The notes below the pieces were generated by a model. It saw only the letters and a program-made list of their open reading frames with translations, searched no databases and was not told where the DNA came from. Positions 14,113 through 61,600 of a stretch of 64,000 nucleotides of DNA are shown here, piece by piece (position 1 is the stretch's first letter; every line of letters begins with the position of its first letter). The DNA comes from Ptychodera flava (taxonomy: Eukaryota > Hemichordata > Enteropneusta > Ptychoderidae), in contig NC_091944.1 of NCBI RefSeq assembly GCF_041260155.1, positions 22,555,877-22,619,876 on the forward strand, given 5' to 3'. The position numbers and the translations under genes are program-made.

Positions 14113-14810
14113 CGAGTGGGCTGCCAAAGGCGTCTGCATGTTAAGAGTGTCATTGGCTATTGTATAAAGTCAATGTATTGTAGTGGGCCGCCTAAGGTGG
14201 CCCGCCGGTAAAGAGGGTCGATCATGGCCGTTGCACGAAGTAAACCTAATTGGAGTGGCTGCCAAAGGCGTCTGCCCGTTAAGAGTGTCATGGGCTATTG
14301 TAAAAAGTCAATTTATTGTAGTGGGCCGCCTAAGGTGGCCCGCCGGTAAAGAGGGTCGATCATGGCCGTTGCACGAAGTAAACCTAATTGGAGTGGCTGC
14401 CAAAGGCGTCTGCCCGTTAAGAGTGTCATGGGCTATTGTAAAAAGTCAATTTATTGTAGTGGGCCGCCTAAGGTGGCCCGCCGGTAAAGAGGGTCGATCA
14501 TGGCCATTGCACGAAGTAAACCTAATTAGAGTGGGCTGCCAAAGGCATCTGCCCGTTAGGAGTGTCATGGGCTATTGTAAAAAGTCAATTTATTGTAGTG
14601 GGCCGCCGAAGGTGGCCCGCCGGTGAAGAGGGTCGATCATGGCCGTTGCACGAAGTAAACCTAATTGGAGTGGGCTGCCAAAGGCATCTGCCCGTTACGA
14701 GGGTCATGGGTAATACAGAAAGTCTATTTATTGTAGTGGGCCGCCGAAGGCGGCCCGCCGGTAAAGAGGGTCGATCATGGCCATGGCATAAAGTGAACAT
14801 TATTGTAGGT
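14113..14810. repeat. Five-copy 138-139-bp tandem array
   Basis: Units begin GAGTGGGCTGCCAAAGG at about 14113, 14253, 14391, 14529 and 14668. Each contains a GC-rich palindromic patch around GGGCCGCC and GGCCCGCCGG, then GGTCGATCATGGCC. Copies two and three are almost identical. Because 138 is a multiple of three, the array yields a spurious 46-residue peptide repeat. The stretch after it (about 14820-14950) holds C-runs separated by GATGA and ends in AACGGTCCCTTATG. Confidence 0.9.
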
Positions 14811-23400: not shown

Positions 23401-26400
23401 GATACAACATATAAAATATCCACAACACACAGATCTTTTCAACTTTCTTCTGGTGATAAAAATTTCTGAAAGTTTTCCAAGCTGACCTATAAAATCTGAT
23501 GCAGAGATAGGATTGTGCAATTACTTTCCATTTTGGATTGAGGTTTGACATGATACACGATAGGTATTTTGTAGTAGAATCAGGGAAATGATGATAAATT
23601 TCTGATATCTTGCTTCATCATGACTGGCACTCATGAGACGTAGCATGAATCGCATATCATGAGATGTGCCTATTAATGTTGTGTATGATTAGGCCTAAGA
23701 GTGTCATAGTCCATGGGTTTTTGCAATTCTCACAACCTTCCTAACTTTCCACTCATGTAAAGGTTTTTCTGTAAATAGACATTTTTTTTGCACAGAATTT
23801 ACCTTTTAACCCATTGTGCCCCCATATATCAAATAACTAGTAACAAACGGTAGGGTACAGTTGCAAATTCCTCAAGTTTTAATGTACTTTGAAATACAGA
23901 TATTTTTTGTCAATTTACTTTTAGAAGGTGTTATTCAACACCTATGCATAAAATCTGGAAACAGATCACATCTACGGTGCTTATTGATTTCAGCTGAAAT
24001 TCCTCACGTTTGGATGTCATGGCCTGAATAGAAAATGTGCAGCAAAATTATACCTTGCCACAAAAGAATTACTTTTGTGTATTTGGTTGGTGGACAGATA
24101 GACAAAATACAGACATACACAGGAAAAAACAAAATAACAGGGAAAATACAATATATTGTAAGTTGAGAAACTTCTTTAATTCTGTTCAATGCATTAGTTC
24201 TGATCTTGTATCACTCACCAGTTTGACACCCTTTTTCCTTGCAAGCGGTGAAGCATAATGTGACTCGTACCACTGCCTGAACGGCGTTGAATCAACCTGC
24301 ACGATACAGTTCTTTACAATAGTTTTGGTTCTCACAAGCTCGTTGTTGCTGGCGTTGTAGACAACGTCGATAATACGTGTTTTACGGCTAACCCCTGAAT
24401 ACGGTGAATAGTTGAAAATTAAAAAAAAATAGCGTCAATGACACTGTAGCTCCCATCCTGGACTATTTAGTGTTTGTTCTCTGGTCAGATATTTGAACAT
24501 GTGTGAAAGGGATAAAGTGCATGAAGTGAAAATACTTAAATGAAATGTACTGGAGACAGTGAAATATGTTTAATGTAATTATTCAGAATATAAAATGGAA
24601 AAAATACAGAATTAGATATATCGAATACTGTGATACAACCATTAACTCAACAAGTCATTTACAATGACATAGTCCCCACTTGTAATAGGAGTATTAGTCT
24701 TGATGGGGCAGGAAAATGTGGTCATTAAGAAGTATCACTGGAGTGTATATGTTGAGATCTATGGGCACATAGGTCTATGTCGTTGTTCCCAATTTGAAAC
24801 ACATGAGGCATGTCTAAGTTATGGTTCTAAATCAGGAAAAAAGATCAGACCTCTAGCAGTATTGGCCAGCCAAGAAATACATATGCGCATTATAAATGAG
24901 GTACAAGATGTGACATCTTAAGGTCTAATATCCTATCAAATTGGAGGGTATAGAACTTGTGGTTACTGAAATATGCATATATATGTATAATCAAGTCAAA
25001 GGTCATCGAGGTCACATGGCATTTTGAAAAAAAAATTATATTGCTAATTAATCCCTATATGCCAAAAAATCAGATCTCTAGCTCTATTCGCTTGCCCAGA
25101 ATTAGATGTATACATAATTAATGAGGCAAAGCGTGTGTTGTCATAAGGTCTCCCATCCTACTAAATACAAAGGACATAGCACTTGTGGTTACTTATTTAT
25201 TGACACAAACATATATTTTAGGTAAAGGTCATCGAGGTCACATGACATTTGGTCAAAAATTTCTCTCCTATAGTTATCCCTATATACCAAAAATCAGATA
25301 TCCAGCTCTATTGGCTCGCTCAGAATGAGATATGCGCATAATTATTGAGGTACAGTATGTCATAATGTGGCGTCATAAGGTGTCCAATCATACCAAACAT
25401 GAAGGGTGTAGCACTTGTGGTTACCGAGTTAGGGAAAAATATGTATATTTGAGGTCAAAGGTCAACGAGGTCACGTGACATTTTGTCAAAAAAATTGTAG
25501 TGCTAAGTTATCCCTATATACCAAAAATCAGACCTCTAGCTCTATTTGCTTGCTCAAATTAGATATGCACATAATTAATGAGGTACAATATGTGGCGTCA
25601 TAAGGTGTCCCATCATACCAAATATGAAGGGTGTAGCACTTGTGGTTACTGAGTTATGCACAAATATGTATATTTGAGGTCAAAGGTCACCAAGGTCACG
25701 TGACATTTTGTCAAAGTGTCTGAGATATCTGCGTGAACGGATGGACTCATGGATGGACTCACGGACGGACATGACCCAATCTAAAAGCCCCCTTGACTTT
25801 ATCTTTGGGGACTAAAAACTGTGTAACTGCATCCTTTTTGCAATATGAATACGATGAGAAACTAAATTTTTATTTTTCTTGGCCTTATACATGGGAGTCT
25901 ATGGACTGCCTTATACATGGGAGTCTATGGACTGCCTTTTACATGGGAGTCCATGGACTGCCTTATACATGGGAGTCTATGGACTTCCTTAAACATGGGA
26001 GTCTATGGACTGCCTTATACATGGGAGTCTATGTACTGCCTTATACATGGGAGTCTATGGACTGCCTTATACATGGAAGTCTATGGACTGCCTTATACAT
26101 GGGAGTCTATGGAGGTGAAAACTAAAAAGTCCTCTAACACGGCCAATTTGATCGCATTGTGAAACAAATCGATGTGCATCTGTATGAGGTAGGGTACTAT
26201 CCTTGTACCAAGTTTGAACGAAATCGCTCCAGGCGTCTCTGAGATATCTGCGTGAACGGACGGACGCACGGACGGACGCACACACGCACGCACGCACGCA
26301 CGGACATGACCAAACCTATAAGTCCCCCCGGACGGTGTCCGTGGGGACTAACAAAGACGATCCAAAGGATCACCAAAAGGGCCTTTAACCCTTTGAACCC

Positions 26401-28699: not shown

Positions 28700-31600
28700 A
28701 TGGCATATTTGGACAAAAAAGTTGATAAGGATACAAGAAGACTGATCAAACATTTGACGGGATTTGAGGTAATTGCATGAAAATATACATGCTTTTGTTC
28801 CACAGAAAGCGCCACCTTAGGGATACATAACAACATTTGGAAACATTTTTGAGAACGCGTCCTGTCATGTACATGTACTCTGAGCAGTCTGTGGCGAATG
28901 AACTTCGAGTTCGAAAGGCGGGACTTTCAAACCTTCTTCTTTGGATCCACCCTCATTTCGGCAGTCGACGATTCAGCAAGTCCAGCATATTTAATGTTCA
29001 GTGTAAGATTTTACAACAGCTGAAGATGAACTGATAAAACCCGTGACTGTACCAAGTGGAAACATTTCTCTCCTCGTCACCCCCCCCCCCCCCTGCACGC
29101 ACCATGGATGTAAAAATCCATGCACGCACACACACTCAGAGGCACATTGATCGTCGCTTTGCGAAGGCTTCGCCATTAAATCATTAAATCTTCACTGTTC
29201 AGACTTCAAACAGGAGAAACCAGAAGTTTGAAGTACTACACACAAAGCCATGTGTTGTATTAAAATGAGTATGAAATGCTTGTATTATATGATCCGTTTC
29301 TAGCTCCATGATTAGAGGGACCGTGGTTTAAAGCCTCAGTATTTGTAACTTTTAACCTTTTTTATGTTCGAAATTACATGTTGTTCTCTTACATCCATCG
29401 TGAAATGTTGTTCAGTAAAGAAATAAGCCAAATTTGTGCTCCTGTAGTGACATACAAACGCTAAATATTGCCCGATCGAGTTGGATTGCCGCACGGGTTT
29501 GTTGACAACTTGTAGGCTGTGCACATGACCGAGAACGCCGATACTGATGACATGATCATCGAGCCTGCAACATTCTCTGGGGCCATGCAATGCCACGCCA
29601 CACTGCCTGGGTAATCGCCCATGGTCGCATGGTCGCCGGGATGGTCGCCGGCTGAATGACCTGCGAATGGTTTTATTTTGTTCTTCTCTGTTCAAATACG
29701 TACTGCCACTGTGTTTCAGAGGATACGGAACTTTGGCAGAGGAGGCTGACATTCTATTCTGGTACAGTGTGCGTTATATACGGATTATTCAAACTGCAGT
29801 CGGCAGTGCACTGATATGCACACCCTGCAGTTGGTCACTCACACAGTTGCGAGTGTAGTGATACGTACCGGCCGCCGCGTACTATGCATAGAATAACTTA
29901 TTCTATGCATAGTACGCGGCGGCCGGTACGTATCACTACACTCGCAACTGTGAGTTTGGCAATGTATGGTAGGCTGTCGAATGCAGTGAACGCGAAGGCC
30001 TTTGGCAGCAAGTAAGGGAACCGTCAGTATTTACGACCTTGGGGTCATTCAAAAATTGAAAGCTAATAAGGAGGTGCTCAAAATGTTTTTCTTTGTCTTA
30101 CTCTGTCCTCAATGAAATAATGATAAGTTGATAAATATATTTTACTCTGAGACAGTTAAATAACAATAAATAAATACTTTAACAGAACAATAAATATCAA
30201 CTAGATGAAGCAAGGCAAAAAAACTACAAGTAGCTGCTACTACTATCAATACTTATTATGAAAGAGAAGATAGTGACGATGAGAATGATATCGTTGTTCA
30301 TGCACTCAACTGCACCAGCGACAGTAAAGATGAGGATCGACAGTGGTGATGATGATGTCACACAGTAGTTTTCTACAGTCGTTACCAGAGGTGAAAGGAG
30401 AGGCTGGGTCATGGAGAAATGTTCTCGACAGATATCACTATAAGTGTACAGGATCTAGGACAAAACTGAACTGTTTTGAATCATCCTTTATATTATCATA
30501 GAAATGTCAATTTATTTGACTTGAGTTCAACAACCATTTGGACATTTAACCATACCATAATGACATTGCTACCCATCCACATTTAACAATACTATATATG
30601 GTCGGAGACTGGTTATTAGGTGAGCTTTTATATCTACGTATTGTTACATGGGCTCAGGTAAGCCAAAATTTCTGTTAGAGAGGGGTTACCCAAAGTCATG
30701 GTTGGCTGGGGTGTGACTCAAAATTTCGGAGTTTCAAATGTAATTCCTCGACCCCCAGGTTGTAAATAATGACGGCTCCCTAAACAGCTGTGAACGCCCG
30801 AGTCAGAACGATCGGGACCAGTATACGCACGGCTGATATCTAAGCGAAAATTTAGAAAAAACAATGGAGCTACTGCTAAGAAATTTACAGACTCTTGGCT
30901 TTTTTGCATCAGTTTTTGAGCTTTTATACTGGTAAAAAGGCATTCTGAATACAGCGGTAAATTTCCTCCCAAACGCGAAAGGCGAACACGCAGGCATTCT
31001 GCAATGGACGCTGTCACTTTACCTTGCTGCAGGCCCCACGCCAATCTCGGCCCGGCCCCGCTGCACTTGTACAGTCTACTACCTCCATGTAGTACAGCCT
31101 TACAGGACTAGTAGCCGGCCAAACGCAAAAAAACAACGCCGCAGTGTAAAATCCGTAGGTCAGAACCATTGATCATAAATTTTCAGAACCAGTGATGTTT
31201 AAAAGTTTTGTATTGATCACTTCATTTAGGTTTATGTGAATGACTTTCTCATCGAGCTGCGTGTATAATTGTCCCGGGCATTGTCCATGCAAATTTGGGG
31301 CCTGCCTTAGCTCCCTCCACAGTCGCTCGAGAGCTATTCAGCTCTGGGACTACAGTACTATTCGCCCCATAGACGAGTGTACATAAGCGAGAAACAACCC
31401 AAGTCTGGAAACAGAATGGCTATAAAAACCACGCCATGTCACATTCCGTGTCCGATTTCACTGTGAAAATTAGCAAGTTCATCTATCATGTAACCGTCGA
31501 TCGTTCCCTAGCATTCTCAAAATTCATACCTGGTACTTAATTTGCTTCAAAAACGCTCGTTTTGTGTGATTTTCGGCCGAATTCGACGGACACATCGCCA

Positions 31601-34600
31601 AAACATAAGCGTGAGCAACATTCCGGTCACCTCTTGGGCACCTCCACTTTACTGACGTTGGCGCCGCCTACCCATGAGGGGTGACTGGAATGTTACTCAC
31701 GCTTATGTTTTGGCGAGGTGTCTCTCGACCTCAGCCGAAAATCACTTGAAAATGAGCATTTTGTAAGCAGATAAAGTATCAGGTATGAATATTTGTGTGA
31801 TTTTAGGCCGAGTTCAGAAGACACCTCGCCAAAACATAAGGCGTGAACAACCTTCCAGTCACCCCTCATGGGTACGCGGCGCTAACGTCAGTAAAGTGGA
31901 GGTGCCCAACGTTCACTGTGAGGTGACCGGAATGTTGCTCACGCTTATGTTTTGGCGATGTGTCCGTCGAATTCGGCCGAAAATCACACAAAACGAGCGT
32001 TTTTGAAGCAAATTAAGTACCAGGTATGAATTTTGAGAATGCTAGGGAACGATCGACGGTTACATGATAGATGAACTTGCTAATTTTCACAGTGAAATCG
32101 GACACGGAATGTGACATGGCGTGGTTTTTATAGCCATTCTGTTTCCAGACTTGGGTTGTTTCTCGCTTATGTACACTCGTCTATGGGGCGAATACTGTAG
32201 TATAGTCCCAGAGCTGAATAGCTCTTGAGCGACTGTGCTCCCTCCGATCGTCTGTAGACTACAGCCAAAATCACAGTCCTAAGCAAATTGTGCAGTTGTG
32301 AAAGTCAGATACATGTATCATGAATTTTATACAAAAATATGTAAACAATACAATCAAACCAAGAAGTAAGTTTGCTGTCGGGCTGGGTACGCAGGGGACG
32401 ACTTTGCAGTGAGGGCGGGATCTCTTGGTGTTCGAACTTCTTCTGGAGCTCCATCGCATCGCAGCTAGCCGATAATTGTACTACTATAGTCCTTGTGAGG
32501 ATTAGATACCCGTTACGTTCGATATTATTTGGAAATACTTTTAAATTTAATAAGTAAGACTTTTGTACTGCATTCAAGATATAATTTTTCCTTTCTGAGC
32601 GTTTTCAATTACGGCAACGATATGCGAAGTTGATAGGCTGTGTTGCCTGCAGCGTAGCCTGGCCGTACACAAAACTTCGTTTGAGTAGACGGAGCAGAAT
32701 CAGTCCCGTCATTTATTATGAACGAAATTTTCATTATACTCCATGATGGAAGAAACGACTAGATCAATGATTACAATGGTGAAGTGTTGAATTTTATTCA
32801 TATATGTTTTTTTCTCTCTCAATTCATTCACCAAACTTGATCTCCGTAGGCCTACCGCCGGTCACAGCGTGCAATGCAGTGCATGAACCTCACAATCGAC
32901 TGCCTCCGTCGTTAGTTTAGCTGTTCAAGACGTTTGTTTGCACGGCTCATTATAGTCGGAACAATCTGTTAACACTTACATATTTATATCTTTCCGGTAT
33001 TTCACCCAACTTTCGCGCGTTTTTGCTGAGTCTCCAGTTTCGAAGGACCAGACCTTTTCGAAGAGCGTAAGTTTCTATGGACACCACAGTAAACTTGCGT
33101 AGATGTGGTTGAGCATGCGCAATGGTGTGATTACGTTTCATTTCGTGTGTCAACAAAGCCTTACTTCTGGTCCGGACAAGAAGTCATTTTTCACTCCTTT
33201 TACTGTGCTGGGCATGCAAACCATGCGATTCAGTATTAATTATGGTCTACTTTCACAAACTGAGATGTCATTTTGATCAAAAATATGAAAAAAATTGTTA
33301 AAAGTTACAAATACTGGGGCTTTAACATTTAATCATTTCGTCATAGGGCTACGCCGTGTTGATATATAATCATGCATTTGGACTCACAATCCACTATTAT
33401 GATTTTGTTTTATTGCAGGAAGACAGTGAAAACTTTCAAACATCAGTGCAGTTTGCACTGTCAAATTTCCGCTTTCATCGCTTTCTGAATGTAGATAGTC
33501 ACAAGCTCGATAGAACAATAGATGGGTAAGTAGCAATCCACCAAAGTCTGACCCTGACCGCTTATAACACTTTAAGTTTAACCTTTTGACCCCTGACTGT
33601 CTGGTAACCCATAAAGATTAAAGGTTTGACCCTTACCGCCTACAAAATGTGGAGATTGTCATACATGTAGAACAGGATGACCACTGACCAGGATTAAACC
33701 TTTTCCTGCCAAGTCCATATTTCACCATCAGGTCAAGATGGTTAAAATTAATGAAACACAACATATTTCATATACCGGTATTGTATTTTAACATAATAAT
33801 GTACTTTTGAAGGCTGTTGAAAACATAAATACTGTAAACTTGATTTTTTTTGGACTAAAGATGCTATACAGACCAAGCCAAGTGAGTGAAAATACGTCAT
33901 GTTTTGACTCAATACCACTTTTTACTGACTTAGCTGATGGGGAAGTGATACTGTCTGGCAGGAAAAGGGTTAATCTTACACAGGAACTTCCCCTATAAAA
34001 GCCGGATTATCGTAAATCTATGCAAATGTATTAAAAAGTTGCCATGCTACTGATGGGACGTGCCGTGTTTGGTCCCGGAATCCCATAATTTTGTCATGTT
34101 TCAAGTGTTCATTGTCATTGAATCTTGCTTGCATACATGTATGATGTCTGTGAATATACAGCGACTGAACCTGAGTCGAAAATAATTGAAAAAATGTTCC
34201 ATATTTTGTTTGAGAGCGTTGCATATGTTTCAAAATGTGTTCCCTGTACGACCATTTGACCCCATTTGCATAAGTCACAAAAGTGCCCATCATGATTATT
34301 CAAATTTCTCATACAGTCAAAGCCATGTTATGAGAATTAAAAAATTCCCACCCAGTGTATGCAAATGGCTGCGTCCCCTATTGTGCACCCACGGTTCTGT
34401 AACTTTCTGTTTAAAAGCTCTCATCACACCAATCCCAGTCTACCGTTTTTGACACTGTAATTCAGTGAAAGATTGTGAGTAAAGTACCCAAAAGTCATTT
34501 ATCTCATGCTTTCTCAGAGGTTCATATGAATCATAATAAAGTAAAGTCTTAGAGTGTGTGCATGACTATTTACCCTCTTGCCCTCTGGAATCTTCTTTAG

Positions 34601-43600: not shown

Positions 43601-46600
43601 TTTTTACGCGTGAAAGACTGACGATAGCCTTGTTTCCTTCTAATCTCAGAGCAAAGTGTCACTTTGATTGAACTCAAGGAGAGATTATTTTGTGAGTTGG
43701 AGCAAGTCTCTGCCCTCCATGAGATTTACGAAATGGGTGTTGTCGATAGCAACGGAAACGCTGCCGTTCTTCTCACAACCATGTATGATAAAATATTACT
43801 ACTGCAAACCAATACAATGGAAGCTGTTGATAAGAGAAAGGTGAGCTGGTGTATCTACGTTTACTGTTTTGGTATTGTTTATTTAGTGTTTACGTTCAGT
43901 GTATCAACTATATATAATTTCTTTCATAATTTCTTTTTTATATCCATAAGTGCAAGAAAGTACCTGATATGGGCCCATCTGTGACAATCGATTTGCATAA
44001 TCCTAGTAAAATGACTTCATGTCCAGATATCAAATTATTTGTCAACAATAACAATGCCTGTAACATATTATTGTCACTGACAATAGGATTGTCAACAATA
44101 ACAATATCATTATCGAGAAAAACGTATGCACATCAAAGCAACATATTGAACATGGTGGTCCAGTTAATTTCTTTTTAATAGTTATGATTTTGTGGTCGAG
44201 AGAACAGTGTGTCATTTTGTTGAGTGGACATGAAATAATTATTGATGTATTTTGTGTATTTGTAATTGAGTACTTTCAGCACATCCCAAATCACTCAACA
44301 CATCTGACTATGGTACATAGACACGTTTAACCTTGGCATTGAATATACTGGTATCTATTCAGTGCGGAGAGTTGGATACGAGTGTTCTCTCATTCTCACC
44401 GTATTCTGTACTTCTTGACAGGTTTGTTTGATACTTGGCCTATTCATACAGTCTATCAGACCGTATCTGGAAATTATTGATGGTTGGATCAGCAATGGCA
44501 CCCTCACAGATCCAGCTAATGAATTCATCATATCCAGGTAATCCACACATGAAAATTTTCCAAAGGTGCTTCCATTATATTGATTTATGTTCAACAAAAA
44601 TGCTCTGAAGCAACGTGATCTAAAATGTTAATTCAATTTCATTTGGTTAATAAAAGTTTTGTAAGTTCTTACAGCCAAGAAAAAGATTCTGAAACGTTTA
44701 AATCATAGATAATACTTGCTGTACCCAACAGGTGAGCTAGATTGAAATAGCGCCACAAGTGTTCTTGTACAGGTATACTTTTGTTTATACCATGAAATGA
44801 TATATTCACATTTAAAATTTGGTTTCATTGAAATTCTAGGGGAAATAAAAACTTTTTTATCACTATGTGCAAACCTTCAGAAAAGGAAAGTCTTGCCATA
44901 AAAAATAATTAAGAATGTCATTATCAATGGAAACTGTTCTTGTTGTCAGGAACAAAGAGGTCAAAACAGAGAGTTGTGATTTCTGGGAGAAAGGTTACAC
45001 CTTCCACAGTATACCGGCTGAACAACAAGATACTGAAAGCAAGGACCAACAGGTCTCTGCTCCAAGTCAGCAAGAAGTACAGGATGTTGAAGTAGGCATT
45101 CCTGGGTTTCTGGAGCCAATACTGTACAAGATTGTACTGGGTGGAAAATCAATGGATCTGTTGGACAGCCTGCGTAGATTAACAGGCACCGCTGTTGAAA
45201 AATCACAAGGTGAGTGAAAATCAGAGATAGAGGTTATTTATGAAGTCTCAATTTTATGACATTTATTACACATTATTGTCTAGCATGCTCAGTGCTGAAT
45301 GGTGATAGAAAAGAGTATTTGGAGAGGCATTTCTTCAAAATGCTAAAGTTTGAATAGTTTACTTCCCAGTAATTTGTGTATTAATTTTTAGTGTATTTGT
45401 GAATTCCTTTGTCTATTCGGTGTGAGTATTTTTTTTCTGACAGAGAGAATCATCTTGTCATAAAACTTGCCGACAATGCATGACTATTGGATAGCTCTCA
45501 ATGCATGACTCTTGGGTTGCCTTCAATGTATGACCCTTGGGTTGCCCTCATTAAAGACCCTTTGGTTGCCCTCATTAAAGACCCTTTGGTTGCCCTCATT
45601 GTAGGACTCTTGGGTTGCCCTCATTGTAGGACTCTTGGGTTGCCCTCAATGTATGACCCTCGGGTTGCCTTCAATGTATGACTCTTGGGCTACCCTCATT
45701 AAAGACCCTTGGGTTGCCTTCAAACTATAACCTTTAGTCGGCTGAAAATATGGTTTGACCCTAAAAAAATTGCTACAAAAGGTTTCTCAACGGTTTTTGA
45801 TAGAGTCAAATGTGTTTAATAACATACTAAAAGTCTACCAAAATCTGACCACCGGAAACGCGTCATTTTCAAGATGGCGTCCAAGATGGCCGCCATATAC
45901 TTAAAATGGCCATAACTATACCAAAAAAAATTGCTACAAAAGGTTTCTCAACGGTTTTGATAGAGTCAAATGTGCTTAATAACATAGTAAAAGTCTACCA
46001 AAATCTGACCACCGGAAACGCGTCATTTTCAAGATGGCGTCTAAGATGGCCGCCATATACTTAAAATGGCCATAAAAAACTTAAATATTAAACCTAGACT
46101 AGTGATGTCTGTGTCTACCACCATGTTTTAGTGGTTTAGGAATCCAACTATCATATCTAGATTATAGGCAAGTGGTCATAAGTCCCATAATTTGCATATT
46201 TGTACATGTATTAAAAATAATCACTGTCACATTCTTCGTCCAGAACATGTTGCTCATGTGGATTTTCACAATTTCCGAGGTTAGGTAGTAAAGGGAAAGC
46301 AACTCCACACATCGTTCATATTTTGGGTGTTTGCGTTTTGTGTATGAAATTGTGTATAATATAAGTGTATGTCATGTTTGGCTGTTTTAAGAAAAGTGTT
46401 GCTTAGCCATGGTGAGACGTATCCGTAATCTACGTGTCTTGATGTTACTCCACACTGGAGTGGAGAGACAAGTGTGACACTGCGATCCGTTGGCGCTGCA
46501 TTTCGAAAACAGAGTTTTCTTGATCAGTCGCTTGAAATTCATTCTTGATGGTGAGACGTGTTGAATGGTTGATTGTTTTTATTTGGTAGTATATTGTTCC

Positions 46601-49600
46601 ACTTACATTTGGTGTTCAAGTAGTTAAGCTAGAATGTCTACTGGTTGGTCTTGTTGTGTTTGTGTAGGTTCGTGTGAACCTGAGTTCGAGCTGTCGTCGC
46701 TTTTGTGAAGTCTGGCACTTATAAGTGTATTGCCTATATTTCTGTTCCTTCTATATGCGATTATTGGTTGATTTTGGAACAGTTTTTATTTAGTGTTTCG
46801 TCTTTTTCAAGTTCATTTCAGTTTTCTGTCAAGGCTTGCTTGATTTTTGTCATTTCGATGTTACGGGCTATATGTTGTTATGAAGACTACTGTACAAAAT
46901 ACAAGATAGCTCTGCTAAAAATAATCTTTAAAAACAACACATTTGAATTAAACGATGAATTCTACCGGCAAATATGGGATGCTCTATGGGGTCTCCCTCG
47001 TCGCTGGAAATAGCAGATATTACATTTCACGAGACAGAAATGAGAATAATACAGAAAACACAAACAACAAATGCCGACCTGGCTGAGGTTCAGGGACGAT
47101 GTTTTCCTGATTTTGATCGGAACACAACACGAACTCAATGAATTCATATCAAACATCAACAAAATGCATCCTATTTTCAAATTTTCGTTTGAAAACTCCT
47201 CTCAAGAAATCACATATTTAGACCTGACTATCTACAAAGGTCGTCGATACAACAAAAAGAACATTCCCAACACCAAGACACACTTAAAACCAACAGATAC
47301 ATTCCAGTTCTTACAAAGAAACTCATGCCATCCGGCAGCAACATTCAAAGGTCTGATCAAAGGTGAAACATTATGAACATCAGAACATGCAACAACGAAA
47401 CCGATTTTACAGAGAAAGTCACACAATTTAGTGAAAAATTACAAGACCGACAATATAAAAATACCGCAATTATACGGTGTCCATCACATTTGATCTGAAT
47501 TGGTACATACCAGTATGGGTACCAAAGATCAACAATAAATGTTGTTTCTATATATCAGTGCAGGAAAATTCCAAGTTGATGTTATGACAATGATTTCTGC
47601 ACAGTACAGCCAGAAAAACAACAAGAAATATATAAACCATAAAAACAAGAATGACAAAAGTAAATAACGTCTGAAACTTTAGGTACTGGAGGTCAACTTT
47701 AGCAACATGCATAGCAAAAACAGCTAGTCCCTCTTAGTTTGAGCAGGTCTGTTAATATGTGACAGTTCAAAAACAATGACAGGAAATGACTCAAGGTCAG
47801 TGGAGTAGCCTGTTTCAGTCACTGGCATGCCACCACTCCTACATATTTGCAGGATTTCCCTTTTTCTTACCTCATTTGCACATTTTTGACGTCCATTTGA
47901 AGAACGTCACGTCTCAGCCCCTGCATCTACCCTGTACACCAAATACTGAGATGATAGCTTTGGCGGTAAGGGAGCTTTTGCGTGTGACGGACATACATCC
48001 GCACTAACATACCCACATACATACATACATAGAGACACACAGACGCCACCGACTCACCATAAAAGCTGTTTTTGTTATTTATGTACATACCAAATATGAG
48101 CTAAAAATGAAATAGAACGCATTATCAGAGAAACAGATCATAAAAGCAGAAAAAAACAGCTTGAACAACAAAAAGAAAGAAAGAACGCCACTAACAATAC
48201 AGTAGCCTTCATAACAACATATAGCCCGTAACATCGAAATGACAAAAATCAAGCAAGCCTTGACAGAAACTGAAATGAACTTGAAAAAGACGAAACACTA
48301 AATAAAAAACTGTTCCAAAATCAACCAATAATCGCATATAGAAGGAACAGAAATATAGGCAATACACTTATAAGTGCCAGACTTCACAAAAGCGACGACA
48401 GCTCGAACTCAGGTTCACACGAACCTACACAAACACAACAAGACCAACCAGTAGACATTCTAGCTTCTCTACTTGAACACCAAATGTAAGTGGAACAATA
48501 TACTACCAAATAAAAACAATCAACCATTCAACACGTCTCACCAATCAAGAATGAATTTCAAGCGACTGATCAAGAAAACTGTGTTTTCGAAATGCAGCGC
48601 CAACGGATCGCAGTGTCACACTTATCTCTCCACTCCAGTGTGGAGTAACATCAAGACACGTAGATTACGGATACGTCTCACCATGGCTAAGCAACACTTT
48701 TCTTAAAACAGCCAAACATGACATACACTTATATTATACACAATTTCATACACAAAACGCAAACACCCAAAATATGAACGATGTGTGGAGTTGCTTTCCC
48801 TTTACTACCTAACCTCGGAAATTGTGAAATCCACATGAGCAACATGTTCTGGACGAAGAATGTGACAGTGATTATTTTTAATACATGTACAAATATGCAA
48901 ATTATGGGACTTATGACCACTTGCCTATAATCTAGATATGATAGTTGGATTCCTAAACCACTAAAACATGGTGGTAGACACAGACATCACTAGTCTAGGT
49001 TATGGCCATTTTAAGTATATGGCGGCCATCTTGGACGCCATCTTGAAAATGACGCGTTTCCGGTGGTTAGATTTTGGTAGACTTTTACTATGTTATTAAG
49101 CACATTTGACTCTATCAAAAACCGTTGAGAAACCTTTTGTAGCAATTTTTTTTGGTATAGTTATGGCCATTTTAAGTATATGGCGGCCATCTTGGACGCC
49201 ATCTTGAAAATGACGCGTTTCCGGTGGTTAGATTTTGGTAGACTTTTACTATGTTATTAAGCACATTTGACTCTATCAAAAACCGTTGAGAAACCTTTTG
49301 TAGCAATTTTTTTTGGTATAGTTATGGCCATTTTAAGTATATGGCGGCCATCTTGGACGCCATCTTGAAAATGACGCGTTTCCGGTGGTCAGATTTTGTA
49401 GACTTTTAATATGTTATTAAGCACATTTGACTCTATCAAAATCCGTTGAGAAACCTTTTGTAGCAATTTTTTTGGGGTAAGGTCTTTTTTTTTCATAAAT
49501 GCAGCTGACTATAACCTTGGCTTGCCTCAGTGTATGTCCCTTTGGTTGCCATCAATGTGTTCCCTCAATTTGTAAGCTTGGTTTGCCCTTAATGTATGGC

Positions 49601-52600
49601 CCTCGGGTGCCTTCAATGTATAACCTTGGTTTGCCCTCAATGTCTGACCCTATGGTTGCCCTCAATGTATGACCCTTGGGTTGCCTTCATTGTATAATCT
49701 TGGTTCCCCCTCAGTGTATGCCTATTGTTGTCTCCACAGACAGGACACCTATGTTCGACCAATTTGTGTCATCAATGTGTGAACTGTGGAAGTTAGATAA
49801 TGCCATCAGTCAAGTTGAATCTCAGGACGAAGATGACAGCACTGTGGTATCTCTGGTCTCCATGGCGACAGATTCCAGCAAACTGTTACAACAAAATGCC
49901 ATGATGCAGAGTAAGAAATATGACATCAAACCTAAACGGTGAGTGTGACAACATTAATGTGCAGTGAAATAAATAAGTGGTTGTAAGAAGTTTTTACCGT
50001 TAGTTAACATAGCACATTTGGTACATAGCACCTCAGCCATGCCCCAAGACCATATGATATGAAATTACTAGCACATGCTGGTACACACCCATAGAACAAT
50101 ACTGTAGATGGGATTCAAACCAAAGGTTTCCTTGATTCTTGAAATGCTCATGAGCATTATTGGCTTGATTTCTGTCTTGATATCTTGGTACATATAAAAT
50201 GTCTCTCACAGTGTACTCTTTAACTGTTCATATCGGCTACGACCACTTGCATGTGGAAAGCACAGCTGCTTACATGTATATCTAGTTTGGCAGTGCTGTC
50301 TAGGTCCCCAGTTATTCTTCTCTGGAAGGAAAAGGACACAATGTCTTCTACAGACTCAGAACGCCCAAAAAATGAAATAATGGCGGTACAAACGAACCCA
50401 CATGTACAAACACATACTTCTGTGTGCGTTTGTGCACCTGATTGTATTTGTACTGTGGTCCATTTGAATTCTGAGTTTGGCCTATTGAGTTTTGCACAGC
50501 AGCAGGTATGCTTTGCTGGAAAGCTAGCAGCACATCAGGTACAACCATTGCACAGTGGCTGGGGGATAGTCAGTATATTGTGTACATACATTAGCACATT
50601 TATCAGTCTGCCATTCAATAGCACTGTCTGTCTCTAGTGTTTAGGAGATGAGAGCAAGTGGTATCTTTTCCATGAGTTTCTTGTAACAGCCTGTTTTTCC
50701 ATCATCCAATCAAACATTCATCCCTAGGTCTGAACCAGATGGTCTGTATCACAAGCTGTTGGCTGTATTTCAAGAGAGACCATTGGACATTCAGGTAGCC
50801 ATGTACAGATGTCTCTACCCTCACATTGACACCAAATGTACCAGGTCGTCTAGGCAGTTAGTAGAATTACTCAAGTCACAGCACAAACTGCTTGACTACC
50901 TTGCTGCCGTAAGGGTGAGTATTCTGTGTGTAACATTTTTCTACTAAGATCAGTAGAGGCATCGCTCATGACCTTAGGGGTCAAGGTTCAAGGGGTCATG
51001 AGTGACTTTCCGCATACAGGTCTGTGTTTCAGCCAGCGTGCGGCATTGCGACATTTGACGCAATTTTTTTTGTTTTGTCCCGATAAAATAACCGTTGTGG
51101 GTCACCATGACGCAATCTGAGCAGGCCATATTTTTGTGGCTATTGAATTTTTAGACAGTGCCTCCTGGGCAGAAAACTACAGCTAAACAATAAAAATGCT
51201 GTAAGATGTTGAAAACAGTTTACCCTCCTTCCTACAAAGTTGCAATGTATTGAAACAGTTTACTCTCCTTTCTAAAAGTTACAAATTCCCTGGTACGTAA
51301 AACAAACATTGTTGCTGTTCGATACTACTAGTACAATACATCACCGGTGTACAACGTCGGTGAATACACTGACAGTCTGTGAGGCTTGGTTTTGCATAGA
51401 TAAGTGCTGCGTACCGGTCGTCCTTGAGTTCAAGTTTTACCTACATTGCTTGCATCAAAATTTGGCCTGCAGCTACTCAGTTTGATAGTAAAAACCATAA
51501 TTTCTACGGAAACTTTCACAATCAGAGTCATTGTACAAGTGAAAAGGAGACAAACTCAGGTTTTCTGAAAGGTCAAATCTGGGTCATTTCACGTGATGTC
51601 ATGAATGAAGACCCCTAAGTACACAATTATGGTTCAAAAGAAACCACCTAGGGAGGCAATAGGTACAATCTTATGTAAAAGAGAAATTCTCGGTGCCTTC
51701 CAATTTACATGGCATTTAGCTTGACTGTCAGTTTTAAATTCTACTTTATTAAGAGTCATGGCAAATGGAGATTGTCAACAGTACTTGCAGTAAGCATATT
51801 CATTTTCAAATCTTCACATTTGAGAGCTGCAATTTTGCATGGTAACTTAACATCAAAGCAACAATTCAAAAGTAGAGCTATTAAAATTGTCCATTTGGCA
51901 TATTTCAAACTGCTATAACTTATACAAGAAATGGTGTGATTCTGAATGATTTTAATATTTCTGCAGATTCTACCACTTTCATGATATAATAATGAACATC
52001 ACTAGACATTTCTTGAAAATATAAATGAAAATATTTCTGGGCTAAAATGTTATCATAATCTTTGAAACAATGATTACTCTAAAACATTGGAAATTAAATG
52101 AACAATATCATTGTGTATTGTTTTACAGGATTTGGGTTTGGCCAAACCATTTTTGTCTCAAGAAAAATACTTATGCTTAAGATGCTATTGAGCCTGCTTG
52201 ATCACAACTATGACACAACACCAGGGCCATAAACACCACAAGAATTGTATCTACATTGCCACTATGCTACCCATGCTTTCTTCTGCATGGAAAATTTTAT
52301 CTGTGTGGCTCACAAAATTTTCGTCATGACTTACAAACTGCATAAATTTGCCACATTAGGAGCTTGTATCAAGTTGTCATTCTGTGAACACTGACAGAAT
52401 GCTACAGAAATATACACTTCACATTGCCACCTAATTTTATTTCTGGTGGTAAAAGTTTACCACCAGAAATGAAAAAATATACCTATCACTTTAATGTCAT
52501 AAAAACACAGATAATTAATGCAATAAAAGCTGAACAAATATTTCTTTAATGTAAAATACAAAACATCTTGATTTGAAAAATGAAGAACTCCTGAATACCA

Positions 52601-55600
52601 AGAAAGTTGTTGCCACACTTGAGATCATAAACTGCCTAAAATTTGTTCAAAGTGGCTACAAGATTTTTGATTTGGCTAATGAGTTGGCTAATCATCTTGG
52701 TGACTTAGGGGGAGCCCTACAGTTTATGTGCATACCACGTGGTAGCAGTAAACTTAATGATACTGCAAGTTTCATGTTGGCACAATTTTGCACAACACCA
52801 TTGGCCTACTATATATACTCACCGTTAATGCACTCACCTGACTTGCCTATTGAACACCAAATACAGTACCAGGTCATAATGACACATAATGACACTGTAC
52901 TGTTGTTTTATTGAAATACATTACATGTCCCCCAAAATTTAATTTGTCCCCATTCAGAACTACCATGGGTCACTGTGTCCCCATGCAAGCAAAAGCTGGC
53001 TGAAACACTGCAGGTACCTGTAGATGTAAGCTACTTTACACTACGGAATCACTTGTTTCTTGTCTACTATTGTTTGCCATTGTCTGATGTAGTATTTTTA
53101 TGTTTGCGTTTCTTTGCCTCCTTTGACCAAAATTTTCTACATTCCTGCGGGCAGTTTACAAATTTGGAATGTTTGCTTGCTGGACAGTAGACATACAATT
53201 TCAATGGTACGTATATGTAAAACACTGAACAAAAGCATATAAAACATGAAATTACATATATTGTACCTGTATCATTTCCCAATGAACAGGTCCCACTGTA
53301 CCTTAGAAAATGTTAGGGTCCGTGGGCTAGAGGGGGTCTACGTGCACCCCCCCCACAGGATAACAAACCTGTATTTTTCAGAACCCTTGGGATCCTAGAA
53401 TACGAAATGGAATTTTAACAGGAAAAATATAGGGACGCAATAGCTGTTATGGTCATGTTTTGAAGGGTACCGTTTTAAAAATCACGATTTTCTAAGCCAA
53501 ATGCATTTTCGTCAAATCTGTCTTCTTGTAAGTCATGTGCTGAGCTCATTTTTTAACTAAACCTCACTTGTTTGGTATCATTAGAAAGGGAATTTATTCC
53601 TCTTTAAAATGACATATTGCACTATGCAATATCTTCTACAGTTTTTGTCAAATATAACCAAAACTTACCCCTTACCCCAAAATTAACATTGCAAATTACA
53701 GTAAAACTCAAATTCTACCAATTTTTTAGCTAGGCATAATAAAATATGCATTGCTTTGTCTGAAATCTGTTTTATTTGATACAGGAACATGTCAGAAATA
53801 TGAAATAGACTTTTAACAGAAAAAATATTGGGAATCTACAGCTGTAACAGTCATATTTTGAAGGGTACCGCAAAATAACAGTGTTGCAGATTTGCATGCA
53901 TTTTTGTTAAAACTGTCTTCTTATAAGTTATCTGCTGAGCTTGTTTTTGAATATAACCTGGCTTGTTAGGTATCATTAGAAAGATAATTCACTAATCTTT
54001 AGAATGACATATTGTAACATGCAATATCTTCTATAGTTTTCATGATATATAACCAAAACTTACCCCTTACCCCAAAGTTTACATTGAAAATTTCAGTCAT
54101 AGCTAAAACCAAATTCTACCATTTTTTTAGCTTGACACAAAAAATCTGGCCGTTTTTGCTATTTAATCTATTTTATTTGGTACAGGGACATGTCAGAAAT
54201 ATGAAATAGACTTTTAACAGAAAAAATATTGGGAATCTACAGCTGTAACAGTCATATTTTGAAGGGTACCGCAAAATAACAGTGTTGCAGATTTGCATGC
54301 ATTTTTGTTAAAACTGTCTTCTTATAAGTTATCTGCTGAGCTTGTTTTTGAATATAACCTGGCTTGTTAGGTATCATTAGAAAGATAATTCACTAATCTT
54401 TAGAATGACATATTGTAACATGCAATATCTTCTATAGTTTTCATGATATATGACCAAAACTTACCCCTTACCCCAAAGTTTACATTGAAAATTTCAGTCA
54501 TAGCTAAAACCAAATTTTACCATTTTCTTTACCTAGACATATAAAATCAGGCATTTATTTGTATGAAATCTATTTCATTCGGTAATGGGTCATGTCAAAA
54601 ATATAAAATAGACTTTTAACAGAAAAAAGATTGGAATTCTGTAGTTGTAACAGTCAGATTTTGAAGGGTACAGGAAAATCTCAGTATTCCTGACTTGTGT
54701 GCATTTTTGTTGAATCTATCGTCTTTTAAGTCATCTGCTGAGCTTCTTATAGAATATAATGTAAGTTGTTAGGTATCATTAGTAAGATTATTTACTAGTC
54801 TTTAAAATGACATATTGTAACATGCAATATCTTGTACAGATTTTTATGAAATATGACCAAAACTTACCCCATACCCCAAAATTTACATCGAAAACTACTG
54901 TCATAGCTAATGTCAAATTCAAGCAATTTTTTACGCAGACATAAAAAATTAGACAATTTTTTGTATGAAATCTGTTTTATTTTGTACTTGGCCATATCAG
55001 AAATATGAAATGAACTTTTAACAGAAAAAATATTGGGATTCTATAGCTGTAACAGCTGTATTTTTAAGGGTACAGCAAAATCTCTGTATTCCTGATTCGC
55101 ATGCGTTTTTGTTAAATCTGTCATCTTATAAGTCGTCTAATGAGCTTGTTATTGATTATAACCGGGTTTGTTTAGTATCATTGAAAAGGTAATTGAATAG
55201 TTTTTAAAATGACATATTGTAACAGGCAATATCTTGTATATTTTTCATGGAATATGACCAAAACGTACCCCATACCCCAAGGTTTATATTGAAAGTACTG
55301 TCATAGATAACGTGATCAAATTCCGTGAATTTTTAGCTAGACATGATAAAAATAGCTCTGTTTCGGTATTAAATCTGTTGTATATGGTACTGGGTCATGT
55401 CAGAAATGTGAAATAGACTTTTAACAGAAAAAATATTTGGACTGTATAGTTGTAACAGCCATATTTTGAAGGGAAATGCAAAATCGCAGTACCGCAAACT
55501 GGCACCTTTTTGTTAAATTCTTCTTCTTGTAAGTCATCTGCTGAACTTATTTTGTGACACAACCTGGCTTGTGAGGTATCATTAGTAGGGCAATTTATTC

Positions 55601-58600
55601 TTCTTTAAGATGACATATTGTAATATACAATGTCATTCATAGTTTTCCTGGAATATGGTCAAACTTTACCCCATACCCAAAAAGTTCAAATCGCAAATTA
55701 CGGCTTATCTTAAATTCTACCATTTTTTGCTGCACATAATACAAAAGGCAATTCTTGTTTAAAATCTGATTCATTTGTTACAAAAGTATGTCACTAGTAT
55801 AAAATTAACTTTTAATGGGAAGATGATACAATTTAGTAGCCATTTGGATCATTTTTGGAGGGGGAACCCATATATTGCAAATGTATGTGTTAGGCAAATT
55901 TGCCCTGATACCTGGGTACCCTTCCAAATATGATCCAAGAGGCTACAAAATCATATTATGTTCCTGTTAAAAGTTAATTTCATATTTGTGACATACTTTT
56001 TAAACAAAAACACAGATTTCATAGATTGCATACAAGCATTGCCTTTGGTATATAAAGTTAATAAATTGTAAAAAAGGTAGAGTTTCAGATTTGCAGTAAT
56101 TTGCTGTGTAAACCTTGGGGTATGGGGTAAGTTTTGGTCCTATTTCATGAAATGTAAACAAAACATTGCATATTACAATATGTCGTTTTAAAGACTAGTA
56201 AATTACCTTCTATTGATACCTAACAAGCCAGGTTATGTCAAAAATCAAGCTCAGCAGATGACTTATAAGAAGACAGATTTAACAAAAAAGCAAGCGAGTT
56301 GGCAATACTGTGATTTTGCGAGACCCTTCAGAATATGACTGTTACAGCTGTAGAATCCCAATATATTTTCTGTTAAAAGTCTATTTCATATTTCTGACAT
56401 TCCCCAGTACCAAATAAAAAGATTTCATATAAAGCATTGCCTTATTTGTTATGTGTAGCTAGAAAATTGGTAGAATTTGACGATAGCTACGAAAGTAATT
56501 TTCGATATAAACTTTGTGGTATGGGGTAAGTTTTCGTCATATTCCATGAAAACTATATCAGATATGGCATATAACAATATGTCATTTAGGAAAGTTGTAA
56601 ATTAGCTTTTTAATGATACCAAATAAACATGGTTATGTAATAAAATAAGCGCAGTAGATGACCTACAATGGGACAAAGTTAACAAAAACACATATGAGTC
56701 TGCACTGCTGTGATTTTGCAGTACTCCACAGAATATGCCTGTTACAGCCATAGAATACCAATATTCTTTCTGTTAAAAGTCTATTTCATATTTCTGACAT
56801 GTTTCTGTACCAAATAAAATAGATTTAATAGCAAAAATGGCCAGATGTTATATGTCTAGGTAAAAAAATGGTAGAATTTGGTTTTAGCTATGACTGCAAT
56901 TTTCAATGTAAACTTTGGGGTATGGGGTAAGTTTTGGTTATATATCATGAAAACAATAGAAGATATTGCATGCTACAATATGTCATTCTAAAGATTAGTG
57001 AATTATCTTTCTAATGATACCTAACAAGCCAGGTTATATTCAAAAACAAGCTCAGCAGATAACTTACAAGAAGACAAATTTAACAAAAATGCATGCAAAT
57101 CTGCTACACTATGATTTTGCGGTACCCTTCAAAACATGACTGTTACAGCTGTAGATTCCCAATATTTTTTCTGTTAAAAGCCTATTTCATATTTCTGACA
57201 TGTCCCTGTACCAAATAAAATAGATTTAATAGCAAAAACGGCCAGATTTTTTGTGTCAAGCTAAAAAAATGGTAGAATTTGGTTTTAGCTATGACTGCAA
57301 TTTTCAATGTAAACTTTGGGGTATGGGGTAAATTTTGGTTATATATCTTAATAACTACACAAGATATTGCATGTTACAATATGTCATTTCAAAGACTAGT
57401 AAATTATCTTTCTAATAATTCCTAACAAGCCAGGTTATATTCAAAAACAAGCTCAGCAGATAACTTATAGGAAGACAGTTTTAACAAAAATGCATGCAAA
57501 TCTGCAACACTGTTATTTTGCGGTACCCTTCAAAATATGACTGTTACAGCTGTAGATTCCCAATATTTTTTCTGTTAAAAGTCTATTTCATATTTCTGAC
57601 ATGTCCTTGTACCAAATAAAATAGATTAAATAGCAAAAACGGCCAGATTTTTTGTGTCAAGCTAAAAAATATGGTAGAATTTGGTTTTAGCTATGACTGA
57701 AATTTTCAATGTAAACTTTGGGGTAAGGGGTAAGTTTTGGTCATATATCATGAAAACTATAGAAGATATTGCATGTTACAATATGTCATTCTAAAGATTA
57801 GTGAATTATCTTTCTAATGATACCTAACAAGCCAGGTTATATCCAAAAACAAGCTCAGCAGATAACTTATAAGAAGACAGTTTTAACAAAAATGCATGCA
57901 AATCTGCAACACTGTTATTTTGCGGTACCCTTCAAAATATGACTGTTACAGCTGTAGATTCCCAATATTTTTTCTGTTAAAAGTCTATTTCATATTTCTG
58001 ACATGTTCCTGTATCAAATAAAACAGATTTCAGACAAAGCAATGCATATTTTATTATGCCTAGCTAAAAAATTGGTAGAATTTGAGTTTTACTGTAATTT
58101 GCAATATTAAATTTTGGGGTAAGGGGTAAGTTTTGGTTATATTTGACAAAAACTGTAGAAGATATTGCATAGTGCAATATGTCATCTTAAAGAGGAATAA
58201 ATTCCCTTTCTAATGATACCAAACAAGTGAGGTTTAGTTAAAAAATGAGCTCAGCACATGACTTACAAGAAGACAGATTTGACGAAAATGCATTTGGCTT
58301 AGAAAATCGTGATTTTGCGGTACCCTTCAAAACATGACCATAACAGCTATTGCGTCCCTATATTTTTCCTGTTAAAATTCCATTTCGTATTCTAGGGATC
58401 CCAAGGGTTCTGAAAAATACAGGTTTGTTATCCTGTGGGGGGGGGGTGCACGTAGACCCCCTCTAGCCACCGGACTATTAGGGTCACATCGAATGTCGCT
58501 GTAATAGGGTTTAGGTAGCACGCATTTCATAATTTAAATCCTAAACTTTTGCTGAAAATTTCCTCAAGGAAAGATTCGATCAGTCTTTTTCCAACTCAGG

Positions 58601-61600
58601 AATAAAAATCAGGGGTCAGCATGTAAATTGTTGCACTAGTGAAACAAAGTACCCAACCTATTCTGACATTTGAAATTCAAAATGGCCGTCATTCCTATGT
58701 TCACACTACGGAGAAAAATTAAATTTTCAATTTTTCACAAAACTAAGACAAGTGAAGACAGTCCCTTCTCCAAGAGCTTCAAAATGAACTCCCACTAGCT
58801 GTAGATCAGAAAAGGTGAAGAAAAATTTGCGAGTCTGAATGTCTGTCCCTGCATACATTCTTACCTTCAAGTGAATGAAACAAAGGTTAACAATGATGAT
58901 CTCTTTGCAGGGTTACTTCTTGATGGAGGCTGGTGACACCATGTATGATTTCTACACCGAAGTCTTTGAGAAGCTGAGATTGCAAGAACACTGGCAGGAC
59001 GTGACCTACCTCAATCTAGCCTTGCAGGAAGCACTGCAGGCACACCATGCCGAGGACATTGACAGGTGACTTGTCATACGTTCACGTTCTCTCTCTTACA
59101 GGGACAAAGTCGACCATTTTTCATTAATATTTGTTTGATGCGAGATACTACTTATATTGTTTGACATGTTGAAAGATACTGAATGAATGGGTGATCATGC
59201 ATGTATTCGACCCCGGTTTTAGACAAATTAAATGAAACCATCGCCAAAAATGAATTAATGATCATGATCAATAATTCATTTTTGCGATGGTTTCATGTAT
59301 CATGTCTAAAATCGGGGTCGAATATAGGCATGGTCACCCATTCATTCAGTATCTTTCAACATGTCAAACACTATAAGTATTATCTCGTATCGAACAAAAT
59401 CCATGAAAAATGGCCGACTTTGTCCCTTTAACTGGGTGCCTTCATCTTGTGTCCAACGCAAGCCCTGTACTCCAACTTCCCTGTATAGAAGTCTACCTTC
59501 CCATTTCACCCTTTCAGCACCCCCTTCCCAGTATGACGTAGAATTTCACATAGCCTTGGAGTACACACCAGCTCTTTTTTACTTGACCTGCGTATCTTTA
59601 AGATGGAGGTCAAGCCCCAAAATTTACTATTCTTCAGATTTTTTTTGGCAAGGCTACAGACACGGCAAGTGAATTTTTTTCAAATTTTTTTTTACCAACC
59701 AGCAAAATCTCTCAAGAGTTACATTGTTACAGATGACACGGAGTCTAGATAAACTGTCCAAAATAGTAAAGGAATTACAAACACAGGCAGTGTTGACAGA
59801 GCAAAATCGGAACATTTCCACATACATGCTCCCAGAAATAACCCCCAAAACATAAAGATATGCACAACGCCTGTCAGCACTAAAATACTTGCAATTGTAT
59901 ATTTCTGCAATTTGCAAAAAAAATAAAAAATAAAAGTATCCAAATTGGCTTAAGTAGAAGCGGCGATTCTGAGAAACTTTATTTCTTTATTCTTTCTACT
60001 CTTCTTTAGCTCTACTTCGCAGTTAATGAACTGATTGTGAGACAGTTGTTTATGCTATATTTCAGGTTGAGAGTATCGGTGGAACCAGTCGGTAGGACAG
60101 GCAGACTACTGATAAATGCTTTGGATGGTTTAACATTACACTACAAGGTACTGATCAAAGATTTCATAATTTATGTATTCACTGTGATAGAGATTAGAAT
60201 TCATGTCTGCTATCTCTGTGACAGAGGTTGTTTTAACTCAGTAGAGTTTTAACTTGGTAGGCTTGTCGTCTTAAGGTATCACATGTCTTGAAAGTGAAGA
60301 CTCAAAAACTTTTGCTCAAACTTTCCTCAATGATACTTTCAATCATTCTCTTACCATATCAATGATAAAAATCAGGGGTCACTGTGCAAAGTTTGGTACT
60401 AGAAAAACTAATCACCTAACATTTAGCAATATTTGAAATTCAAAATGGCCGTCATCCCTGTGTTAACTCTAAATTTTTTTTATTTTCGAAAAACTATGAC
60501 ATTGAAAATGTTTTGTATTCTGAGAGCTTTAAAATGAACCCCTACAAGTGGAAGATCAGACAAGAATTGTGAAAAATTTAGATTCCAAATATCTGTCTCT
60601 GAGGCAGATTCTACATTAAGGGACATTTACTTTTTCACATAAAGGGCTCTAATCTAGTATGCTGACTTTGCAAGACTAACTCAACAAACTGTCTTCTATT
60701 TTCCCACCTACTATTGTCCTGTACCTCATTAAGCTGACTACACTCCTGAGTTTGATGATAATGGTTTCATACTGTTTCTGTCATGGTGTGTCAGAATGTA
60801 ATTTTTAAGTCCCTTTGCAGCAAAAGCAATAAAGGCATTGTTTTTTCCACCCTGATTCAAGGTTCCATGGCCCATAGATGTTGTGTTGAATGACAGATGT
60901 CAGCGGATTTACAATGAAATTTTCTCTCTGCTATTACAAGTGAAGAGAGCTAAGTACTGCCTTGACCAGCTCAGATTTACAGGTGAGATTTAGATTGCTG
61001 TGGGTACTGGTCAGTGAAATTAATCTCATTACAATTCTTGTCAAGGAGTATTTCCATATAAAAATTACAAAGCAAACAATGTCCATTATGATACTGGCAA
61101 TCAGAGTGTGATGAAATTTGCCAGTGTACAATTCTGCCAGAGGAATACTTCCAAATGAAAATTACCAAGTGAATGATATATTGTTTAAGGCGGTCCATGT
61201 CAAAAATTAACTGAACAGTTGAATTCAAATACGCAACTCAGCTTTGATTCTTTGTGAAAAAAAGGGGTGAGTTGTGTAGGACTACCGAGTGTTTGGTTTT
61301 GACTGGTGACAATAAACTTGTTCATCCTGGTCAAACAGAACTATATTTCATGCCAGCAAATGCCCACAGGATACAAAAGTAAGCTACTTATTCCATTTCA
61401 TGTACTTCAATATTGAACCTGAACTGTCCAGTTATAATTTGGTTTGCCTCAAATATATTTATCAAGCATAAATGCCACATGATTTCATAACATTGACTGC
61501 AGACAACTATTTTTCTAGAGTAGCTCTTTTTTTAAACACATGTATTTCTGTACCCCTGCATTAGCCATTACTACTGGTAGTTCTTATATTTCTTTGTCTC

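Follow-up and report, generated by a model that had tools for sequence, protein, structure and literature searches.

The hairpin studied here occupies positions 53318–58475 of a 64-kb window, by which is meant the whole stretch of Ptychodera flava DNA that was analysed (64,000 nucleotides). Its host is an intron on the plus strand of a GCP5/TUBGCP5 gene, which functions in cell division, at 50915–58910. The exon before the intron ends at 50914 and is followed by GTGAGT, and CAG precedes the next exon, which starts at 58911. Residues 32–114 of the joined exon peptide align without gaps with residues 684–766 of gamma-tubulin complex component 5 (6v69_J), and more exons downstream of 58911 match the same protein. 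The protein match and the splice sites therefore place the element inside a GCP5 intron of 7,996 bp, transcribed along the plus strand. This agrees with an earlier reading made from the letters alone (the sequence-only reading), which had put the hairpin in a TUBGCP5 intron.

Self-comparison and alignment of the arms with each other resolve the hairpin into two opposed arrays, each with six units of approximately 400 bp and a partial inner unit. The arms are of opposite orientation and about 2.57 kb each, with a tandem period of about 401 bp. Unit boundaries were anchored on a TTTTAAC block common to the units, which gives lengths of 391–406 bp: from the outside in, 398, 401, 402, 402, 403 and 391 bp on the left and 395, 402, 401, 401, 400 and 406 bp on the right. 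The loop measures about 20–45 nt, depending on where pairing is taken to stop, and the innermost predicted pair in register is 55888–55910. Two hallmarks of foldback elements are present, namely long inverted terminal arms and tandem repeats within them. The sequence-only reading had described inverted arms at 53318–58475, about six tandem 400-bp units in each direction and a loop of about 45 nt, and all three are recovered here. The features are listed below, with left (L) and right (R) units numbered from the outside in.

50915–58910, plus strand: GCP5 intron holding the element (splice sites, GCP5 alignment)
53313–53320, plus strand: candidate target-site duplication TTAGGGTC, left copy; its real length may be 3–8 bp
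53318–54371, plus strand: left outer tract, almost identical with its counterpart on the right; the step is at its inner end
53321–53398, plus strand: left terminal domain, outside the tandem unit; unit-like sequence starts at 53399
53413–53810, plus strand: left unit L1
53811–54211, plus strand: left unit L2
54212–54613, plus strand: left unit L3, mosaic
54614–55015, plus strand: left unit L4
55016–55418, plus strand: left unit L5
55419–55809, plus strand: left unit L6
55810–55972, no strand: two partial units face to face and the loop, around the innermost predicted pair
55973–56378, minus strand: right unit R6
56379–56778, minus strand: right unit R5
56779–57179, minus strand: right unit R4
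57180–57580, minus strand: right unit R3, mosaic
57581–57982, minus strand: right unit R2
57983–58377, minus strand: right unit R1
57421–58475, minus strand: right outer tract
58392–58477, minus strand: right terminal domain, mirroring 53321–53398
58478–58485, plus strand: candidate target-site duplication TTAGGGTC, right copy

Arm identity changes in a step

A single local alignment of the arms supplies both the overall count (283 mismatches in 2,542 positions) and its division at 54372. Outside this point 9 of 1,050 aligned positions mismatch (0.86%), and inside it 274 of 1,492 do (18.4%). Gapped columns are excluded from these counts; they comprise five indels in the outer tract (53325–54371), the unmatched bases of the tips and more indels further inside. 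Over 53325–54371 the arms are seven substitutions and five indels apart.

A model with one step, at 54372, has an AIC of 1532.6 over the 2,542 aligned positions. Slope models are much worse, at 1611.1 for linear probability and 1618.5 for the logistic form, and a smooth gradient of identity is rejected by this comparison. A two-step fit is slightly better than the single step (AIC 1528.1), with the second step at 54528 and 10.3% mismatch between the two, while a slope inside 54372 adds 0.6 log-likelihood units, which is no further trend. The sequence-only reading had arm identity graded from outside to inside. Set against distance from the centre, identity instead shows one drop at 54372, followed by a short zone of intermediate identity that ends near 54528, and is flat inside it. 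The contrast that had been noted between the extremes does stand: at 99.2% for L1/R1 and 99.3% for L2/R2 the outermost partners are near-identical, and the innermost, L6/R6, have diverged to 75.5%.

Relationships among the units

Unit identities, exclusive-state counts, conservation, mosaics and the tree were all based on the 12 whole units, the inner partial units being set aside. L1 and L2 are only 79.2% identical. Because L1/R1 and L2/R2 are 99% alike even though L1 and L2 differ by about 21%, the copying kept the register of the units and joined the two arms to each other, and did not homogenise the array. Further in, the mirror partners L4/R4 and L5/R5 are 80.8% and 77.1% identical. Identities between units that are not partners are similar (L4/L2 81.3%, L5/L2 81.0%, L6/R4 75.6%), and the inner units are scarcely closer to their mirror partners than to other units.

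A weak mirror signal persists in the innermost units. Exclusive states, counted with L2, R2, L3, R3 and R4 merged as one class and L1 and R1 as another, number six for L5/R5 and five for L6/R6, the top two of the ten pairs among L4, L5, L6, R5 and R6; the other eight have one to four, and pairs that involve a merged class have up to seven. L6 and R6 are sisters in 85 of 100 bootstraps. Neither tree groups L5 with R5 as sisters, and L6/R6 is therefore the main evidence for the older mirror symmetry.

Units 2–4 are patchworks. L3 differs from L2 at 2 of 309 compared positions over the first 318 or so alignment columns and at 20 of 92 thereafter (Fisher p 4e-12). The sequence-only reading had taken units 2 and 3 of the left arm to be nearly the same, which holds for these first three quarters and fails for the remainder. 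Likewise, R3 differs from L2 at 3 of 243 positions in its two ends together and at 14 of 158 in its middle (Fisher p 4e-4). For both Fisher tests the segment limits were picked after the sites had been seen. Short tracts of conversion, or unequal exchange between units of the array, would leave a patchwork of this kind. Invariant columns of the unit are somewhat clustered (variance test, p 0.0065). As a candidate binding site, the best conserved block of 24 columns, with a score of 16, is unexceptional beside the mean maximum of 14.9 in permutations (p 0.28), and so no binding site is claimed in the unit.

Ends, coding content and copies

On both sides a stretch of approximately 80 bp that does not belong to the unit precedes the array. 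Both candidate ends are flanked by the 8-bp direct repeat TTAGGGTC; when 22-nt sequences from the window are paired at random, 0.6% of the pairs have an 8-mer in common. Since the outermost tips match uncleanly, the duplication may be TTA alone, with GGGTC then belonging to the left tip. The ambiguity of the left tip gives the candidate duplication a length of 3 to 8 bp, a measure that helps to distinguish the Mutator, P, hAT and PIF/Harbinger superfamilies. TTAGGG, which many animals have as their telomere hexamer, occurs within the repeat, probably by chance.

The element has no coding part, and its short loop is too small for a transposase gene. Pfam identified no transposase among seven open reading frames of the window, one of which had a single match below the family cut-off. 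Across the window there was no structured RNA or tRNA, by Rfam at gathering scores or by ARAGORN. None of 47 BLAST pieces matched the 64-kb window outside the element, which is therefore seen there as a single copy, and the same window holds no complementary target for a hairpin RNA. Searches with tip and unit patterns, exact or degenerate, gave no match in viral_contigs and none in genome_contigs; these negatives mean little because the two collections are viral and prokaryotic. Among the titles listed in a literature search that mostly did not extend to subscription papers, none describes this element, which does not establish that it is absent from print.

Other repeats in the window

Two related elements, at 1805–4993 and 45760–49476, are about 93% alike; in each, long inverted arms enclose a reverse-transcriptase-like frame (2721–3269 is one example). 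The frame has no Pfam or PDB match, and we take it to resemble Penelope-like enzymes. The copy at 45760–49476 sits in a minisatellite of about 25 bp and has tandem units of about 160 bp at its ends, two of them at the left end and three at the right. Its own arms are 97.1% identical, and they are 91.7–93.1% identical to those of the element at 1805–4993. Being closer to each other than to the arms of the related copy, they suggest that homogenisation between arms is not peculiar to the 5-kb hairpin. The element at 1805–4993, with its own arms 91.6% identical, shows no such homogenisation.

A palindrome of 0.9 kb at 31318–32237 has arms that are 94.1% identical over 442 aligned columns, including a 275-nt stretch reported as 100% complementary, and is perhaps another foldback or MITE-like element. 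On the minus strand, a cluster of open frames at 9672–12610 includes a cysteine-rich stretch (9672–10070) that presumably resembles the TSO1/tesmin CXC domain. Three frames neighbouring this stretch have no Pfam match, and the cluster is possibly a decayed mobile-element gene. Tandem arrays are found at 14114–14788 (138-bp GC-rich units) and 24840–25715 (225-bp units).

Predicted RNA duplex

The element's sense transcript has a predicted folding energy of −3295 kcal/mol. In this fold 88.8% of the bases are paired, and the arms are in register for 2,285 of the 2,289 pairs. Controls of equal length gave −1330 kcal/mol (the stretch from 38001) and −1089 kcal/mol (one mononucleotide shuffle). Pairing is predicted for 1,044 of the 1,054 bases in the left outer tract. 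Perfect predicted helices extend to 262 bp in the element. In two controls of the same length they reach 21 bp (one other part of the window) and 14 bp (one mononucleotide shuffle), which puts the hairpin far beyond chance. On thermodynamic grounds the pre-mRNA is expected to form a very long duplex, in keeping with the claim of the sequence-only reading that the TUBGCP5 pre-mRNA would form more than 2.5 kb of double-stranded RNA.

Selection for pairing in the sense RNA received no support from the differences between the inner arms, in a comparison of limited power: transitions that leave a G-U pair on the sense strand, which such selection should favour, number 69, and those that disrupt pairing 64 (p 0.73), beside 141 transversions. 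The sequence gives no sign that the element is maintained for its RNA.

Comparison with known foldback elements

Foldback transposons with long repetitive arms occur in a deuterostome as the TU elements of sea urchins, where the unit is about 15 bp long. For the sea urchin case, PMC4079207 cites Lieberman et al. (1983).

Tetris, a foldback transposon of Drosophila virilis, is described as having no apparent coding capacity and arms made of a terminal domain followed by AT-rich tandem units of about 220 bp (PMC4079207). The same account gives target-site duplications of 8–9 bp for the only three structurally complete copies, a unit number altered by duplication of one unit, a terminal domain of up to 866 bp, arms of up to 1,735 bp, and inner and middle domains. 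On this published description, the element is like Tetris in its long inverted arms, its combination of terminal domain and tandem units and its lack of coding sequence. It is unlike Tetris in having a terminal domain of about 80 bp, 400-bp units, arms of about 2.57 kb and almost no middle.

Galileo, a foldback-like member of the P superfamily, is described with units of about 210 bp in the arms of subfamily F and with a unit number that varies independently between the two arms; repair of a break in one terminal inverted repeat from another is a published proposal (PMC3573991). Its repeats are reported to hold extra transposase-binding sites (PMC3688188). Near-complete copies with P-type transposase-coding segments are described, and the longest arms given are about 1.26 kb (PMC3573991; PMC3688188). 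The shared features, as far as these accounts go, are long, internally repeated arms and a proposed arm-to-arm copying. Unlike Galileo, the present element has no transposase found with it, and its arms are about 2.57 kb rather than 1.26 kb.

Tm1 of root-knot nematodes, in the Mutator/foldback family, is reported to have composite arms with internal repeats of about 14 bp, target-site duplications of 8–10 bp in 45 of 53 elements, two ends whose outermost 7 bp differ, and some copies with a Mutator-like transposase or a histone-hairpin motif (PMC3169594). Short outermost tips that do not match, as described there, are possibly also present in this element, in which the internal repeats are units of about 400 bp rather than 14 bp.

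By its anatomy, the element fits the foldback kind. Foldback elements with arms of tandem units are already published (Tetris, Galileo); the present one has an unusually clear conversion boundary.

Origin of the hairpin

With a probability of roughly 0.78, the GCP5 intron contains a non-autonomous DNA transposon of the foldback type, its outer 1.05 kb or so recently copied from arm to arm and its tandem units having also exchanged pieces. This reading starts from the anatomy, the step and the patchwork, which are observed. As for mobility, the element would have relied on a transposase supplied from elsewhere, and its units may serve as repeated transposase binding sites, as shown for Galileo. 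In the simplest history the arms would once have been mirror images and then diverged unit by unit. After this divergence, the outer end of one arm, approximately 1.05 kb, would have been copied from the other, a direction of copying that we infer. The likeliest route would be repair of a break templated by the opposite arm, whether here or in the copy from which this one came. Unequal exchange or conversion between neighbouring units would have made the patchwork of units 2–4. Conversion at the outer ends, as proposed by the sequence-only reading, is thus supported in the form of one recent near-identical tract. The repeated growth also proposed there, giving a graded series, is not supported, one tract and patchy exchange between neighbours explaining the data. 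Nor is an even divergence of arms in ordinary inverted-repeat transposons, on which that reading drew, a useful contrast, because published accounts of Galileo and Tetris include variable, internally repeated arms that exchange sequence.

A distinct terminal domain at both outer ends, the 8-bp direct repeat, the step and the published parallels point to a foldback transposon. Counting against it are the single copy seen in the window, the unclean tips, the lack of a linked transposase and the position of L5 and R5, which are not sisters. The main rival is an inverted satellite-like array formed in place by inverted duplication of a tandem array and never transposed. The units do form a regular tandem array, partner signal in the inner units is slight and no second copy was seen in the window, but the same non-unit terminal domain lies inverted at both ends with an 8-bp direct repeat outside it, and simple inverted duplication predicts neither. 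Formation in place is accordingly considered unlikely.

It is considerably less probable that the locus is a source of hairpin RNA, its arms kept alike since an intronic duplex feeds small-RNA production or editing. The strong predicted fold, paired in register and almost throughout the left outer tract, would suit such a role. Against it, transitions that keep pairs are about as frequent as those that break them, divergence has gone unchecked in the inner 1.5 kb and the window contains no complementary target. An assembly artefact, in the form of a palindromic chimera or a wrongly copied arm, is the least probable of these explanations and very improbable in itself. Near-identical outer tracts are what it would produce, and such repeats are hard to assemble; a read-level foldback chimera, however, should be most alike centrally, whereas this hairpin is alike at its outer ends and diverged in the middle. 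The outer tracts also differ at the 9 positions and five indels given above, and the two flanks are unlike except for the short direct repeat.

Implications

If the foldback reading holds, it is a caution that even a very strong predicted duplex of intronic RNA may arise as a by-product of how a transposon is built. The locus would also make a single tract of arm-to-arm copying directly readable, with a sharp inner limit and 0.86% divergence since, and would be a concrete case of the break-repair route proposed for Galileo. A broader proposal, and a doubtful one, is that the outer tract has been renewed repeatedly across insertions of the family by arm-to-arm copying, at transposition or later, which would preserve ends that the transposase can use while the inner units drift. 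Were this true, the step in each copy would be a record of its last renewal, giving a per-copy clock for foldback elements.
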